Part shown: one piece after another, positions 10,237 through 12,947 of the stretch
Layout of the letters: each line of letters opens with the position of its first letter
Position numbering within the stretch: the first letter of the stretch is position 1
Program-made: the position numbers and the translations under genes
NCBI RefSeq assembly: GCF_001563225.1
Contig: NZ_CP014206.1
Coordinates: forward strand, 1,178,001 to 1,242,000
Source of the DNA: Pseudodesulfovibrio indicus
GTDB taxonomy: Bacteria > Desulfobacterota > Desulfovibrionia > Desulfovibrionales > Desulfovibrionaceae
DNA length: 64,000 nucleotides
Direction of reading: 5' to 3'
Notes under the pieces: model-generated
Databases searched by the model: none
Seen by the model: only the letters and a program-made list of their open reading frames with translations
What the model was told of the DNA's origin: nothing

Positions 10237-10574
10237 GGTTTCCGGCAATGTCGGGTGCGGCTTGCGATAGCGGCGCATCAGCACCACTCTCCCAAGCCTG
10301 ATGTCGGCGGGCGTCGGTCATCCGGCCACGTCGCCGGTCCGTTGCACCTGCCTCTGGGCGACAAGAACCGCTGTTTGGGGCTTCGCCCCAAAGGCGCTCC
10401 ATGGGATTTGCATTTGGAAAGGGACCGGAGAAATCCGAGTCCATTTTTTATTTTGAAAGTCCTCGATCTCGCTGCCCCGCTTGCCTTTAAAAGGCAGCAG
10501 CCCGCAGGGCGACCCTGCCCATTATGTGGACGGGAGATGGGCTAGCTGGGGAGACGGCGTCAGCCGCAAGGCGC
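10237..10574. other. Gap with a solo hairpin related to the composite repeat
   Basis: No gene is supported. TTTGGGGC-TTC-GCCCCAAA at 10374-10392 followed by GGCGCTCCATGGG matches the GGGGC hairpin module of the large composite repeats (for example near 15765-15790), so this may be a remnant. The remaining sequence has no recognised signal. Confidence 0.45.
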
Positions 10575-10627
10575 AAAAAAGGCCCGGGACCGAAGCGTAT
10601 CTCAATACGCGAGGGTCCGGGCCTTTT
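10575..10627 (-). terminator. Terminator of the Cys-type HesB-like gene
   Basis: Read on the - strand, a long stem (AAGGCCCGGACCC... / ...GGTCCCGGGCCTT with an inner ATACG / CGTAT stem) runs into TTTTTT (AAAAAA at 10575-10580 on +). It is almost identical to the terminator at 11282-11335 of the neighbouring paralogue. Confidence 0.85.
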
Positions 10628-10660: not shown

Positions 10661-10999
10661 CTAGCAGCCGCAGCCGCCGGAGCCGGCGGAACCGCAGGAA
10701 CCGGAAGAGGAGCAGCCGCAGCCGCCGCCACCGACCTGGTTCTCGGAATCGACGGTGAAGCCGTAGGCGGTCATGTCGATGGCGACCGCACCGGTGGCCT
10801 CGGCCAGCTCGGCGTCGATCAGGAAGGTGAAGTCGCCCTGCTGGACGGATTTATCGTTATCGCGGACTTCGTCCAGGGCCAGGGCCAGGCGGGGACCGGC
10901 GCAACCGCCGTCCGCCAGATGCACCCGGATGGGCTGTACGTCCTTGTCCGCAAAATATTTGGTCAGTTCATTCTGGGCCGATTCGGTGACTGTGATCAT
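10661..10999 (-). CDS. IscA/HesB-like protein, cysteine form
   Basis: A 112-residue A-type Fe-S carrier/HesB-like protein. It begins ITVTESAQNEL, has the family segment PIRVHLADGGCAGPRLALALDE with Cys33, and ends in a Gly/Ser/Cys-rich tail (GSCGSAGSGGCGC). ATG 10999 is chosen over ATG 11005 because AGGAG (11007-11011) is 7 nt away from the former and only 1 nt from the latter. It aligns without gaps through the first 33 residues with the upstream paralogue at 11356-11697, which has UGA where this gene has UGC. A plausible promoter lies at 11032-11059. Its probable role is Fe-S or selenium/sulfur-linked metal handling in the cytoplasm. Confidence 0.85.
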   Translation of the reverse strand: MITVTESAQNELTKYFADKDVQPIRVHLADGGCAGPRLALALDEVRDNDKSVQQGDFTFLIDAELAEATGAVAIDMTAYGFTVDSENQVGGGGCGCSSSGSCGSAGSGGCGC

Positions 11000-11031
11000 A
11001 TTCATACTCCTGAATGGTTTCGTGTCCCAAG

Positions 11032-11059
11032 ACAATAAGTTTCATCTATCCGATGTAAA
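11032..11059 (-). promoter_or_regulatory. Possible promoter of the Cys-type HesB-like gene
   Basis: On the - strand TTTACA (11054-11059) and TATTGT (11032-11037) are separated by 16 nt, about 20 nt upstream of the AGGAG site. Spacing and position fit a sigma-70 type promoter; the hexamers are only moderate matches. Confidence 0.4.
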
Positions 11060-11281
11060 GAGAAAAATGATCGATAGCCCCGAGAGTTGCCCCTAACCAG
11101 CCGACATAACGAGCTTAAAAAATGCGATCGGTTCCCGTTTGCCCGGCTGGCCAGGCTCCCCCATTACCTTACAATAGGGCGGAGCCGCGCCGGGGGAAGG
11201 TGTCGGCTGCACGGAGAAGCCTCAAGTCAGCGCAGAGGGGCGGGTGGGAGGTCGGCGGGTGGGAAGGGGGGTACAAGGCGC

Positions 11282-11335
11282 AAAAAAGGCCCGGGACCGA
11301 AGCGTATCTTCATACGCAAGGGTCCGGGCCTTTTT
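11282..11335 (-). terminator. Terminator of the Sec-type HesB-like gene
   Basis: Same stem and T-run as the element at 10575-10627, with only a few loop changes (TTCAT vs TCAAT). The near identity shows that gene plus terminator was duplicated as a unit, or that the terminators are kept alike by gene conversion. Confidence 0.85.
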
Positions 11336-11355
11336 GCAATGCAGCGTGTCGGTCG

Positions 11356-11697
11356 CTAGCAGCCGCAGCCGCCGGAACCGGCGGAACCGCAGGAACCAGC
11401 CGAGGAGCAGCTGCAGCTTTCGCCGCCGCTCACCGGGTTCTCGGATTCCACCACGAAACCGTAGTAGGTCATATCGACTTTGACGTTGCCGACCTGTGCG
11501 GCCAGCTCCTTGTCGATCAGGAAAGTGAAACCGGCGGTCTCGAACACTTCATCCTTATCGTTAGGCTCATCCAGAGCCAGGGTCAGGCGCGGGCCTGCTC
11601 AGCCGCCCGCCGCGAGATACACGCGGATGGGGGACGCTTCCTTGTCCTGGAAATACCCTTCAAGCTGCTTCTGGGCAGCCTCGGTGACTTCGAACAT
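11356..11697 (-). CDS. IscA/HesB-like selenoprotein (UGA at codon 33 read as Sec)
   Basis: Read through one TGA, this is a 113-residue HesB-like protein: MFEVTEAAQKQLEG at the N-terminus, LAAGG-U-AGPRLTLALDE around residue 33, and the same Cys-rich tail as its neighbour. The TGA (11601-11599) is in frame and falls exactly on Cys33 of the paralogue. GGAGG lies 8 nt before ATG 11697, so translation clearly starts upstream of the UGA. A short hairpin at 11564-11578 (GGCUC-UGGAU-GAGCC) starts 20 nt after the UGA, at bacterial SECIS distance, with a G in the second loop position. HesB-like selenoproteins are an established family in deltaproteobacteria. An annotation pipeline would probably call only a truncated ORF from 11547. 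Confidence 0.87.
11564..11578 (-). promoter_or_regulatory. Candidate SECIS hairpin
   Basis: GGCTC-TGGAT-GAGCC forms a 5-bp stem with a 5-nt loop inside the coding region; its loop begins 25 nt downstream of the UGA. A second hairpin (CAGGC-CCGC-GCCTG) lies between the UGA and this stem. The corresponding stretch of the Cys paralogue (GGCCCTGGACGAAGTCC) cannot form it. Confidence 0.55.
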
Positions 11698-11862
11698 GTA
11701 TAATGCCTCCTAATTGTGGTCGGGAATTGAAGAGGTAAGATCAATAGTACCCTTTGTCAAATCGAAAGTTGCGACGGCCTGCGGGCGGAAGTTGACCCCC
11801 CTTGGGGGATGGGCTAATTTCCAAAGTTCCTTCAACCGTTAACGCCACGAGCGAGGCTTGGG

Positions 11863-12408
11863 ATGATGAAAGACTGCGGCACCATTTTGTCCGACAAGGA
11901 GATGAGCCGAACCCTGGAGCGGCTGGCCGTCGAGGTCTACGAACGGCGGGGCGACGACGCCTCACTCGCCATCCTGGGCATCCAGCGGCGCGGCGCGGAC
12001 CTGGCCGAGCGGCTGAAGAAGCTCCTGGACGAGCGGATGGGGCGCAAGATTCCCCTCGGGAAGCTCGACATCAATCTGTACCGCGACGACTGGACCACCA
12101 ACCTGGAGCTGGCCCCGACCATCAACTGTTCGGAGATCGGTTTCGACGTGGACGGGGCGTCCATCGTGCTGGTGGACGACGTGCTCTACTCGGGCCGGAC
12201 CGTGCGCGCGGCCCTGGAGGCGATCCTGGACTACGGGCGGCCCCGGCGCGTGGAGCTGCTGGTCCTGGTGGACCGGGGCCATCGCGAGCTGCCCATCCAG
12301 GCGGACTACGTGGGCAAGCGGCTCGACACCATGGGCGACGAGCACGTCAACGTGCTGGTCACCGAGCGCGACGGCGAGGATCGCGTCTGCCTGGTCCGGG
12401 GCGAGTAG
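11863..12408 (+). CDS. pyrR: Bifunctional PyrR: pyr regulator / uracil phosphoribosyltransferase
   Basis: A 181-residue type I phosphoribosyltransferase. The PRPP-binding loop VLVDDVLYSGRTVRAAL lies near residues 100-115, with an upstream GIQRRGADLAERL substrate loop near 44 and a C-terminal DRGHRELPIQADYVGK block, all diagnostic of PyrR. It would convert uracil plus PRPP to UMP and, in many bacteria, bind pyr mRNA. GAGG at 11853-11856 precedes ATG 11863. The next gene begins 2 nt after its stop, so it heads a three-gene operon with a kinase and a YkgJ protein. No pyr genes or obvious PyrR-binding loop are nearby. Confidence 0.9.
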   Translation: MMKDCGTILSDKEMSRTLERLAVEVYERRGDDASLAILGIQRRGADLAERLKKLLDERMGRKIPLGKLDINLYRDDWTTNLELAPTINCSEIGFDVDGASIVLVDDVLYSGRTVRAALEAILDYGRPRRVELLVLVDRGHRELPIQADYVGKRLDTMGDEHVNVLVTERDGEDRVCLVRGE

Positions 12409-12410
12409 GC

Positions 12411-12947
12411 ATGGTCTTCAACCGCATCGAGCGCGACAAGGTTTTGCAGCCGTGCATCACCCTGGTGGGCATGGCGGGCGCGGGCAAGTCCACCCTGGGC
12501 GGGCTGCTGGCCGCGCGGCTGGACTGGGGCCAACTGGACACCGACCGGTACATGGAATCCTACTACGGCCTGACCCTGCAAGGGATCATGGACAGCTACG
12601 GACTGGACGACTTTCTGCGCATCGAGGAGGAGCTGGTTTCCGGCCTGAACCTGACCCGCACGGTGATTTCCACCGGCGGCTCGGTCATCTACGGCGAACG
12701 CGCCGTGGCCCGGCTCAAGGAGCTCGGCCCTGTCGTGCTGCTCGACATCGACGAACCCACCTTCCTTGAGCGGGTGGGCAGCGGCGAGAACCGGGGGTTG
12801 GCCATCGGCCCCGGCAAGACCATGGTCGACCTTTACAACGAGCGGCTCCCGTTGTACCGCAAGGCGGCCGACCTCACGGTCCGCACCGACCGGCTGACCC
12901 CGGAAGCGTGCGTGGAGCGCATCCTCAACCACATCGACATTCAATGA
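12411..12947 (+). CDS. Shikimate kinase-family protein
   Basis: A 178-residue P-loop kinase. Walker A GMAGAGKST lies near residues 20-28, LDTDRYMES near 43 corresponds to the shikimate-binding DTD, the segment DDFLRIEEELV to the FR-E motif, STGGSVIYG near 87 to the GGG loop (here GGS), and YNERLPLYRKAAD to the LID-distal R-x-P-x-Y. These support an AroK/AroL fold. The replacement of GGG by GGS and the unusual middle region leave the substrate open; shikimate-kinase-like enzymes in Desulfovibrio have, as I recall, been linked to homoserine phosphorylation, but I cannot verify that here. Its stop overlaps the next start (ATGA). Confidence 0.7.
   Translation: MVFNRIERDKVLQPCITLVGMAGAGKSTLGGLLAARLDWGQLDTDRYMESYYGLTLQGIMDSYGLDDFLRIEEELVSGLNLTRTVISTGGSVIYGERAVARLKELGPVVLLDIDEPTFLERVGSGENRGLAIGPGKTMVDLYNERLPLYRKAADLTVRTDRLTPEACVERILNHIDIQ

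Follow-up and report, generated by a model that had tools for sequence, protein, structure and literature searches.

Two adjacent HesB-like genes differ at codon 33

Why selenium is spent where cysteine seems an adequate substitute is an old open question. It arises in compact form in a 64,000-nucleotide stretch of the Pseudodesulfovibrio indicus genome (the window, whose numbering is used below), where two neighbouring HesB-like genes on one strand carry UGA in one gene and UGC in the other at the same codon. How did such a pair arise, and what does the cell gain from both forms? The genome carrying the pair is 3.97 Mb in one contig, and the features of the locus are as follows.

10566..10627, minus strand: intrinsic-terminator-like hairpin of hesB-Cys, identical to that of hesB-Sec at 58 of 62 positions
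10661..10999, minus strand: hesB-Cys, the paralogue with UGC at codon 33; 112.5 bits against NF038090
10901..10903, minus strand: UGC, codon 33 of hesB-Cys
11033..11059, minus strand: promoter-like sequence of hesB-Cys, TTTACA ... TTATTG, similar only in near relatives
11273..11334, minus strand: intrinsic-terminator-like hairpin of hesB-Sec
11356..11697, minus strand: hesB-Sec, IscA/HesB family; 113 codons before the stop, codon 33 being UGA (Sec)
11564..11578, minus strand: SECIS-type hairpin GGCUC-UGGAU-GAGCC, with its stem beginning 20 nt past the UGA and its loop 25 nt past it
11599..11601, minus strand: in-frame UGA, codon 33 of hesB-Sec and the sole in-frame UGA of that ORF
11706..11711, minus strand: Shine-Dalgarno sequence AGGAGG of hesB-Sec
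11733..11761, minus strand: sigma70-type promoter-like sequence of hesB-Sec, TTGACA ... TTACCT
11863..12408, plus strand: pyrR, the divergent neighbour, used as marker of the same locus in relatives

hesB-Cys lies downstream of hesB-Sec across a gap of 356 nt, and a second in-frame ATG of hesB-Cys is present at 11003-11005. The original prediction described an alignment of the paralogues through the N-terminal 33 residues; the paralogy stood but the limit did not, as the translations align over their full length with 65% identity. It was right that UGA and UGC occupy exactly codon 33 of the two genes, and the strong ribosome-binding site that it placed before the UGA gene is real. The C-terminal end of hesB-Sec comprises a CxC and then a Cys-rich Gly/Ser/Cys tail, a layout repeated in hesB-Cys. 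Beyond pyrR, positions 12408-12947 hold a gene above the cut-off of NF040667 (hom_kin_desulfo, homoserine kinase of the shikimate-kinase type), with 232.9 bits.

Both proteins pass the cut-off of 85 bits for NCBIfam NF038090 (IscA_HesB_Se), a known family with selenoproteins among its members (hesB-Sec scoring 122 bits), as well as the PF01521 gathering score of 26.3 (35.3 and 40.7 bits). Their scores of 43.7 and 42.1 bits do not reach the TIGR01911 HesB_rel_seleno cut-off (66.35 bits), so they are not members of that model, and at 19.6–29.1 bits they do not reach the IscA, ErpA and SufA equivalog cut-offs (117–150.6). A solved-structure profile search with the Sec protein first in the profile returned four distinct chains at E ≤ 0.01, and the GG-U/C motif containing residue 33 aligned with the GGC/GC motif of AQ_1857, HI1723 and YfhF, solved chains that we take to be A-type carriers. 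With IscA, ErpA and SufA the pair shares PF01521, a Sec33 aligned to the first motif Cys and a CxC near the end, but it lies far below their equivalog cut-offs, has the extra Gly/Ser/Cys tail and replaces Cys by Sec.

Decoding of the UGA codon

The original prediction of a natural Sec/Cys pair named absence of selA, selB, selC and selD as evidence against it. A genome search identified selB (396 bits), tRNA-Sec (81), selA (618) and selD (328), each over its curated score. A tRNA scan of the window found none, and tRNA-Sec sits elsewhere in the genome; Rfam at gathering thresholds gave no match in the window. The selD gene of this genome (G000:C1:420357-421286, locus L050 in our numbering) has one in-frame UGA of its own and is therefore itself a selenoprotein gene. 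Downstream of the UGA of hesB-Sec, dN was below dS in all seven comparisons made.

The window hairpin by itself is only fairly convincing: a 46-nt fold gave z = -2.35, with 3 of 200 shuffles as good, and a 65-nt fold was no better than shuffles (z = 0.16). The hairpin script applied the distance rule for bacterial SECIS elements together with a G within the first two loop bases. Under this rule, a hairpin with the same loop position and size was the best found in 100 of 100 distinct Sec copies, whereas among 78 distinct Cys copies one had a hairpin there, 49 had none that fitted the rule and 28 had one elsewhere. The hairpin that the original prediction saw at bacterial SECIS distance, and described as lacking in the Cys gene, is real. 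When synonymous codons were randomised with the protein kept, an equally good hairpin arose in 2.5% of draws for Sec copies, compared with 74% for Cys copies, where every draw was scored as good if the copy had no hairpin. In 25 Cys copies the six residues spanning the hairpin are shared with some Sec copy; because the stem is kept in only 1 of these 25, its loss does not follow from the protein alone. At the third position of the Ala codon GCU, a U-A pair is retained in 100/100 Sec copies, while a standard pair is seen there in 8/78 Cys copies and a C is present in 48/78. Covariation among Sec copies is slight and consists of a few changes from C-G to U-A and from G-C to A-U.

In the standard code UGA is a stop, which would make hesB-Sec a pseudogene. 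We regard that reading as extremely improbable and reject it, given the full Sec machinery, the purifying selection (dN below dS) past the UGA, the hairpin in every Sec copy and the presence of a UGA copy in all 36 genus genomes described below. The same evidence, together with the stop-free copy in each of those 36 genomes, strongly supports the natural Sec/Cys pair that had been proposed.

Distribution of the pair

Related genomes were named as a place to look for the pair, and it recurs there: each of the 36 genus genomes searched (36/36) has a single UGA copy accompanied by one or more stop-free copies. The stop-free copy is above the family cut-off in 35 of them and weak in G128. In 33 of the 36 the two copies share contig and strand, the stop-free one being downstream (26 within 1 kb of each other and 7 at 1–3 kb); in G164, G199 and G205 they are on different contigs.

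In the host's bacterial family, 181 of 199 genomes possess the NF038090-type family. We collected 97 loci, nearly all from that bacterial family, of which 81 have both forms, 11 have Sec alone and 5 have Cys alone; these counts describe an uneven sample, drawn from the best-scoring matches or from matches to two short patterns (one of which reads Cys codons only), in which several loci represent one genome entered from two collections and five of the "Sec alone" loci have their Cys copy past a catalase gene. A phylum search matched 124 of 247 genomes, 114 of them outside the host's bacterial family. Among the matches listed, which stop short of the weakest ones and cover 109 out-of-family genomes, 84 have UGA copies only, 10 stop-free copies only and 15 both, with both copies adjacent in 5.

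Gene order at the pyrR locus

A divergent pyrR gene stands beside the copies in 87 of the 97 loci; the 10 in which it was not found include the window's own locus, which lay outside that BLAST set yet has pyrR. Of the 87, 48 are ordered pyrR-Sec-Cys and 17 more have this order plus a third copy; pyrR-Cys-Sec accounts for 13 and pyrR-Sec for 9. The reversed order, with Cys nearest pyrR, occurs in three lineages, namely g9 (including a Fundidesulfovibrio record), g10 and g41. Among the few neighbours examined, none was seen to be shared other than pyrR and, in five genomes, a catalase gene, and a Pfam search of 10 neighbour ORFs of relatives gave no family for 5 of them. This catalase gene separates the Sec copy from the Cys copy in the genus genomes G202, G203, G185, G104 and G215 (L083:3609-5060, L083 being the contig of G202, and also loci L153-L156 and L158), the match in G185 being split over two frames.

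Origin of the Cys copies

The 228 matches corresponded to 192 distinct rows. Nine rows from a third paralogue, with Glu, Ala or Asp as residue 33, and five degenerate rows (four Cys, one Leu) were then removed. The remaining 178 served for the largest tree and for counting SECIS hairpins; neither these rows nor the per-locus counts include L002, which duplicates L001, or L120, a weak Rudaea match. All trees were built from 86 columns of the core, with the tail excluded, and many of their forks are unresolved.

Neither the Sec nor the Cys copies form one clade in the core trees. A 145-row tree required 11 changes of form, 3 of them forced by starred branches, and an AU test against a single clade gave p = 0.0007. 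A more careful tree of 57 rows, hand-chosen from the 178 so as to represent 25 loci from different lineages, with 7 Sec rows added as outgroup, required 9–12 changes (5–95% range), 6 of them forced; here one Cys clade had an AU p of 6.65e-80, and one origin appeared in 0% of 200 bootstraps. A division into one Sec clade and one Cys clade is rejected by both tests. In the 178-row tree, for which 33 rows from elsewhere in the phylum served as root, parsimony needed 15 changes if the root was Sec and 18 if it was Cys, with 7 changes forced; it needed 18 if only Sec-to-Cys steps were allowed and 31 if only Cys-to-Sec steps were.

We read these results as pointing to a Sec ancestor that acquired Cys partners repeatedly, with Sec/Cys pairs re-made by duplication or gene conversion. 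Sec ancestry is suggested because parsimony favours a Sec root and 84 of the 109 listed out-of-family genomes are UGA-only, and the re-making of pairs because a single Cys origin is rejected by the AU tests and the order is reversed in three lineages. Gene conversion between neighbours could nevertheless mimic repeated duplication.

Conversion has probably acted in the present genome. The two genes are identical at 168 of 252 nt in the core but at 44 of 48 nt at the ends of the ORFs, a gapless comparison for which a codon alignment gives 32/57, spoiled by gaps. Since this tail and the terminators (58/62) are far closer than the core and the terminator pattern occurs just twice in the whole genome, both times at this pair, the shared 3′ ends likely stem from conversion. 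A dispersed terminator repeat as their source is rejected, the pattern having two sites genome-wide. Among near relatives, L064, L065, L071, L077 and L079 have a Cys copy with a different tail, and in L072 both copies have the Sec-type tail.

The same process might explain the whole pattern: one ancient pair in which conversion, and not repeated duplication, homogenises the copies of each lineage while selection holds codon 33 and the SECIS element. The constancy of the pyrR locus (87/97 loci) agrees with this, as do the near-identical tail and terminator beside a diverged core and the confinement of the terminator pattern to this pair. Against it, Cys stands nearest pyrR in 13 of the 87 pyrR loci, in three lineages, an arrangement that conversion of the core alone would produce only if it also moved the Sec codon and SECIS element; moreover, the Cys core of this genome clusters with the other Cys copies of its genus and not with its neighbouring Sec copy. 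We lean against a single ancient pair, while considering it a serious possibility.

A probable A-type carrier role

A PF01521 search of this genome at E ≤ 1 gave two matches, hesB-Sec and hesB-Cys. Across the 36 genus genomes, 37 of 40 matches were the known copies, the other three (in G202, G203 and G216) being below the cut-off; the model is not very sensitive here, with no match at E ≤ 0.01 in 7 of the 36 pair-bearing genomes. A canonical IscA is expected to score far higher against PF01521. A NifU/IscU-type scaffold gene was found in the genome. Because no other A-type protein was found there, the pair is likely to fill the role of the cell's A-type carrier.

The explanation that we favour overall, and hold to be probable, is that the locus consists of a Sec gene and a derived Cys gene for A-type carrier-like proteins, separately transcribed, with the Cys gene as a conditional backup. 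Two separately transcribed genes would thus yield A-type (IscA/HesB) carrier-like proteins. Codon 33 of hesB-Sec would be read as Sec in vivo by SelB and tRNA-Sec via the hairpin within the coding sequence, so that Sec33 stands where the A-type motif has its first conserved Cys; together with the C-terminal CxC and the Cys-rich tail, it would probably bind iron or an Fe-S cluster and pass it on. hesB-Cys would derive from a Sec gene, the likeliest route being tandem duplication followed by 3′-end gene conversion; it lacks a SECIS element and would be transcribed from its own promoter-like sequence. The Sec form would be conserved and steadily expressed, and the Cys form would serve as a conditional backup when Sec synthesis fails or the selenol is a liability, at low selenium or under oxidation.

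Beyond this genome, selection in the host's family may demand both a Sec and a Cys form of the sole A-type carrier, the pair having been rebuilt several times at the pyrR locus from a Sec ancestor, such that the one-residue choice marks a functional split and is not neutral. We consider this broader proposal nearly as probable as its opposite; if true, the split could be, for example, between anaerobic growth and oxidised or selenium-poor growth.

Division of labour between the two forms

The two forms differ in rate. Over 28 disjoint locus pairs the mean distance was 0.165 for Cys and 0.083 for Sec copies; the Cys distance was larger in 22 pairs, equal in 3 and smaller in 3 (p = 0.0004). Cys copies evolve faster, and the Sec copy is more conserved. 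The upstream regions also differ. An exact TTGACA occurs within 120 nt upstream of 30/30 Sec genes of the genus but of only 1/23 Cys genes (70/100 and 19/76 in the whole set), and it is followed by CTTACCT in 28 of the 30 genus Sec genes. No selenium-responsive or other regulator site was found upstream of the copies. The palindrome GTAATNATTAC occurs upstream of Cys genes in 7 of 76 regions (3.15 expected) and upstream of Sec genes in 6 of 100 (6.05 expected); this enrichment is weak, and the palindrome was rejected as an operator of Cys genes. Palindromes resembling GTAATNATTAC were seen between the -35- and -10-like boxes of Cys copies in L056, L062, L074, L075, L076 and L081.

What condition would call for the Cys form? 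In line with the original suggestion of differing selenium supply, the Cys gene might be repressed at adequate selenium and induced at scarcity, like the Sec/Cys isogenes of Methanococcus, for which a transcriptional switch to Cys isogenes via HrsM is described (PMC11097638). The separate and different promoter-like sequences of hesB-Sec and hesB-Cys are compatible with such a switch, but the Cys upstream regions of the genus have no operator in common and nothing was found linking the locus to selenium control, which leaves this possible but doubtful. Oxidation could instead be the cue, with Sec33 serving strictly anaerobic growth and Cys33 serving on exposure to oxygen. A catalase gene between the two genes in five genus genomes points that way, and an earlier survey gives HesB-like proteins as one of two example families linking Sec forms to anaerobic conditions (PMC1794560). 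This is nevertheless the unlikely one of our readings of the cue, as the catalase gene is limited to 5 of 36 genus genomes, similar ones at that, and the 356-nt gap in the window has no such gene. With the intervening catalase, an oxidation-related division of labour fits no less well than one based on selenium supply. Either condition would be compatible with the conditional backup that we favour.

Relation to known systems

HesB-like selenoproteins are already known from earlier work (PMC1914089, PMC1794560, PMC13188914, PMC9312934, PMC1088965), including DVU_1382 of Desulfovibrio vulgaris, a TGA-containing gene of the HesB family (PMC1914089). A HesB-like selenoprotein of Methanococcus maripaludis was found by mutagenesis and 75Se labelling, its function being described as unclear, and an unpublished remark of the authors adds that the disruption mutant still fixes nitrogen (PMC11097638). 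As such a mutant exists and fixes nitrogen, the protein may be of modest importance. The present Sec protein resembles both in family, in Sec at the first conserved Cys and in small size, but here, as far as those texts go, the difference is a Cys paralogue in tandem and a pair conserved in relatives. The Sec protein itself is known; the recurrent tandem Sec/Cys pair was not found in the passages and listings covered by the literature search.

The HrsM-controlled isogenes of M. maripaludis likewise combine, within one genome, Sec and Cys versions of the same protein; those are methanogenesis enzymes with a known repressor, whereas here the protein is Fe-S carrier-like and no regulator was found (PMC11097638). 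The closest evolutionary parallel that we met is the independent duplication of SPS2 in animals (PMC4561486). In metazoan SPS1/SPS2, too, independent duplications of a Sec gene gave a non-Sec partner, but that partner has neither Sec nor Cys, whereas here it has Cys, is in tandem and is bacterial. A 2006 survey of 25 families counted 15 Sec-to-Cys events in all and 2 in HesB-like proteins (PMC1794560); the 6 forced changes of form in the 57-row tree add Sec-to-Cys changes within one bacterial family. Because both forms occur together, the Cys form has more than one origin, SECIS element and UGA are strictly linked and no other A-type carrier over the Pfam cut-off was found in the 36 genus genomes, these dozens of genomes with both forms in one background amount to a replicated natural experiment on the use of Sec.

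Variant copies

Several loci carry further variants of the family. In the Solidesulfovibrio-type genomes of L036, L038-L043, L045, L047, L107, L109 and L113, the pair is directly followed by another HesB-like ORF, the third in the row, in which Glu, Ala or Asp replaces Cys33 (FLSF...GPRL) and which scores 46–56 bits. The one examined (L038:2044-2394) had no Pfam family, and, judged by its sequence, it is possibly a carrier without the first ligand. Within the genus, L054, L058, L063, L076 and L080 have degenerate copies next to either the Sec gene alone or the whole pair; one of them has Leu as its active-site residue, and they look like decaying duplicates. The Cys copies of L092, L093, L095-L100, L102, L103, L110 and L112 (Humidesulfovibrio, Desulfocurvus and others) have a GGCCGP(K/R) motif with two adjacent Cys and one residue fewer ahead, and L108 has GSCCGPK.
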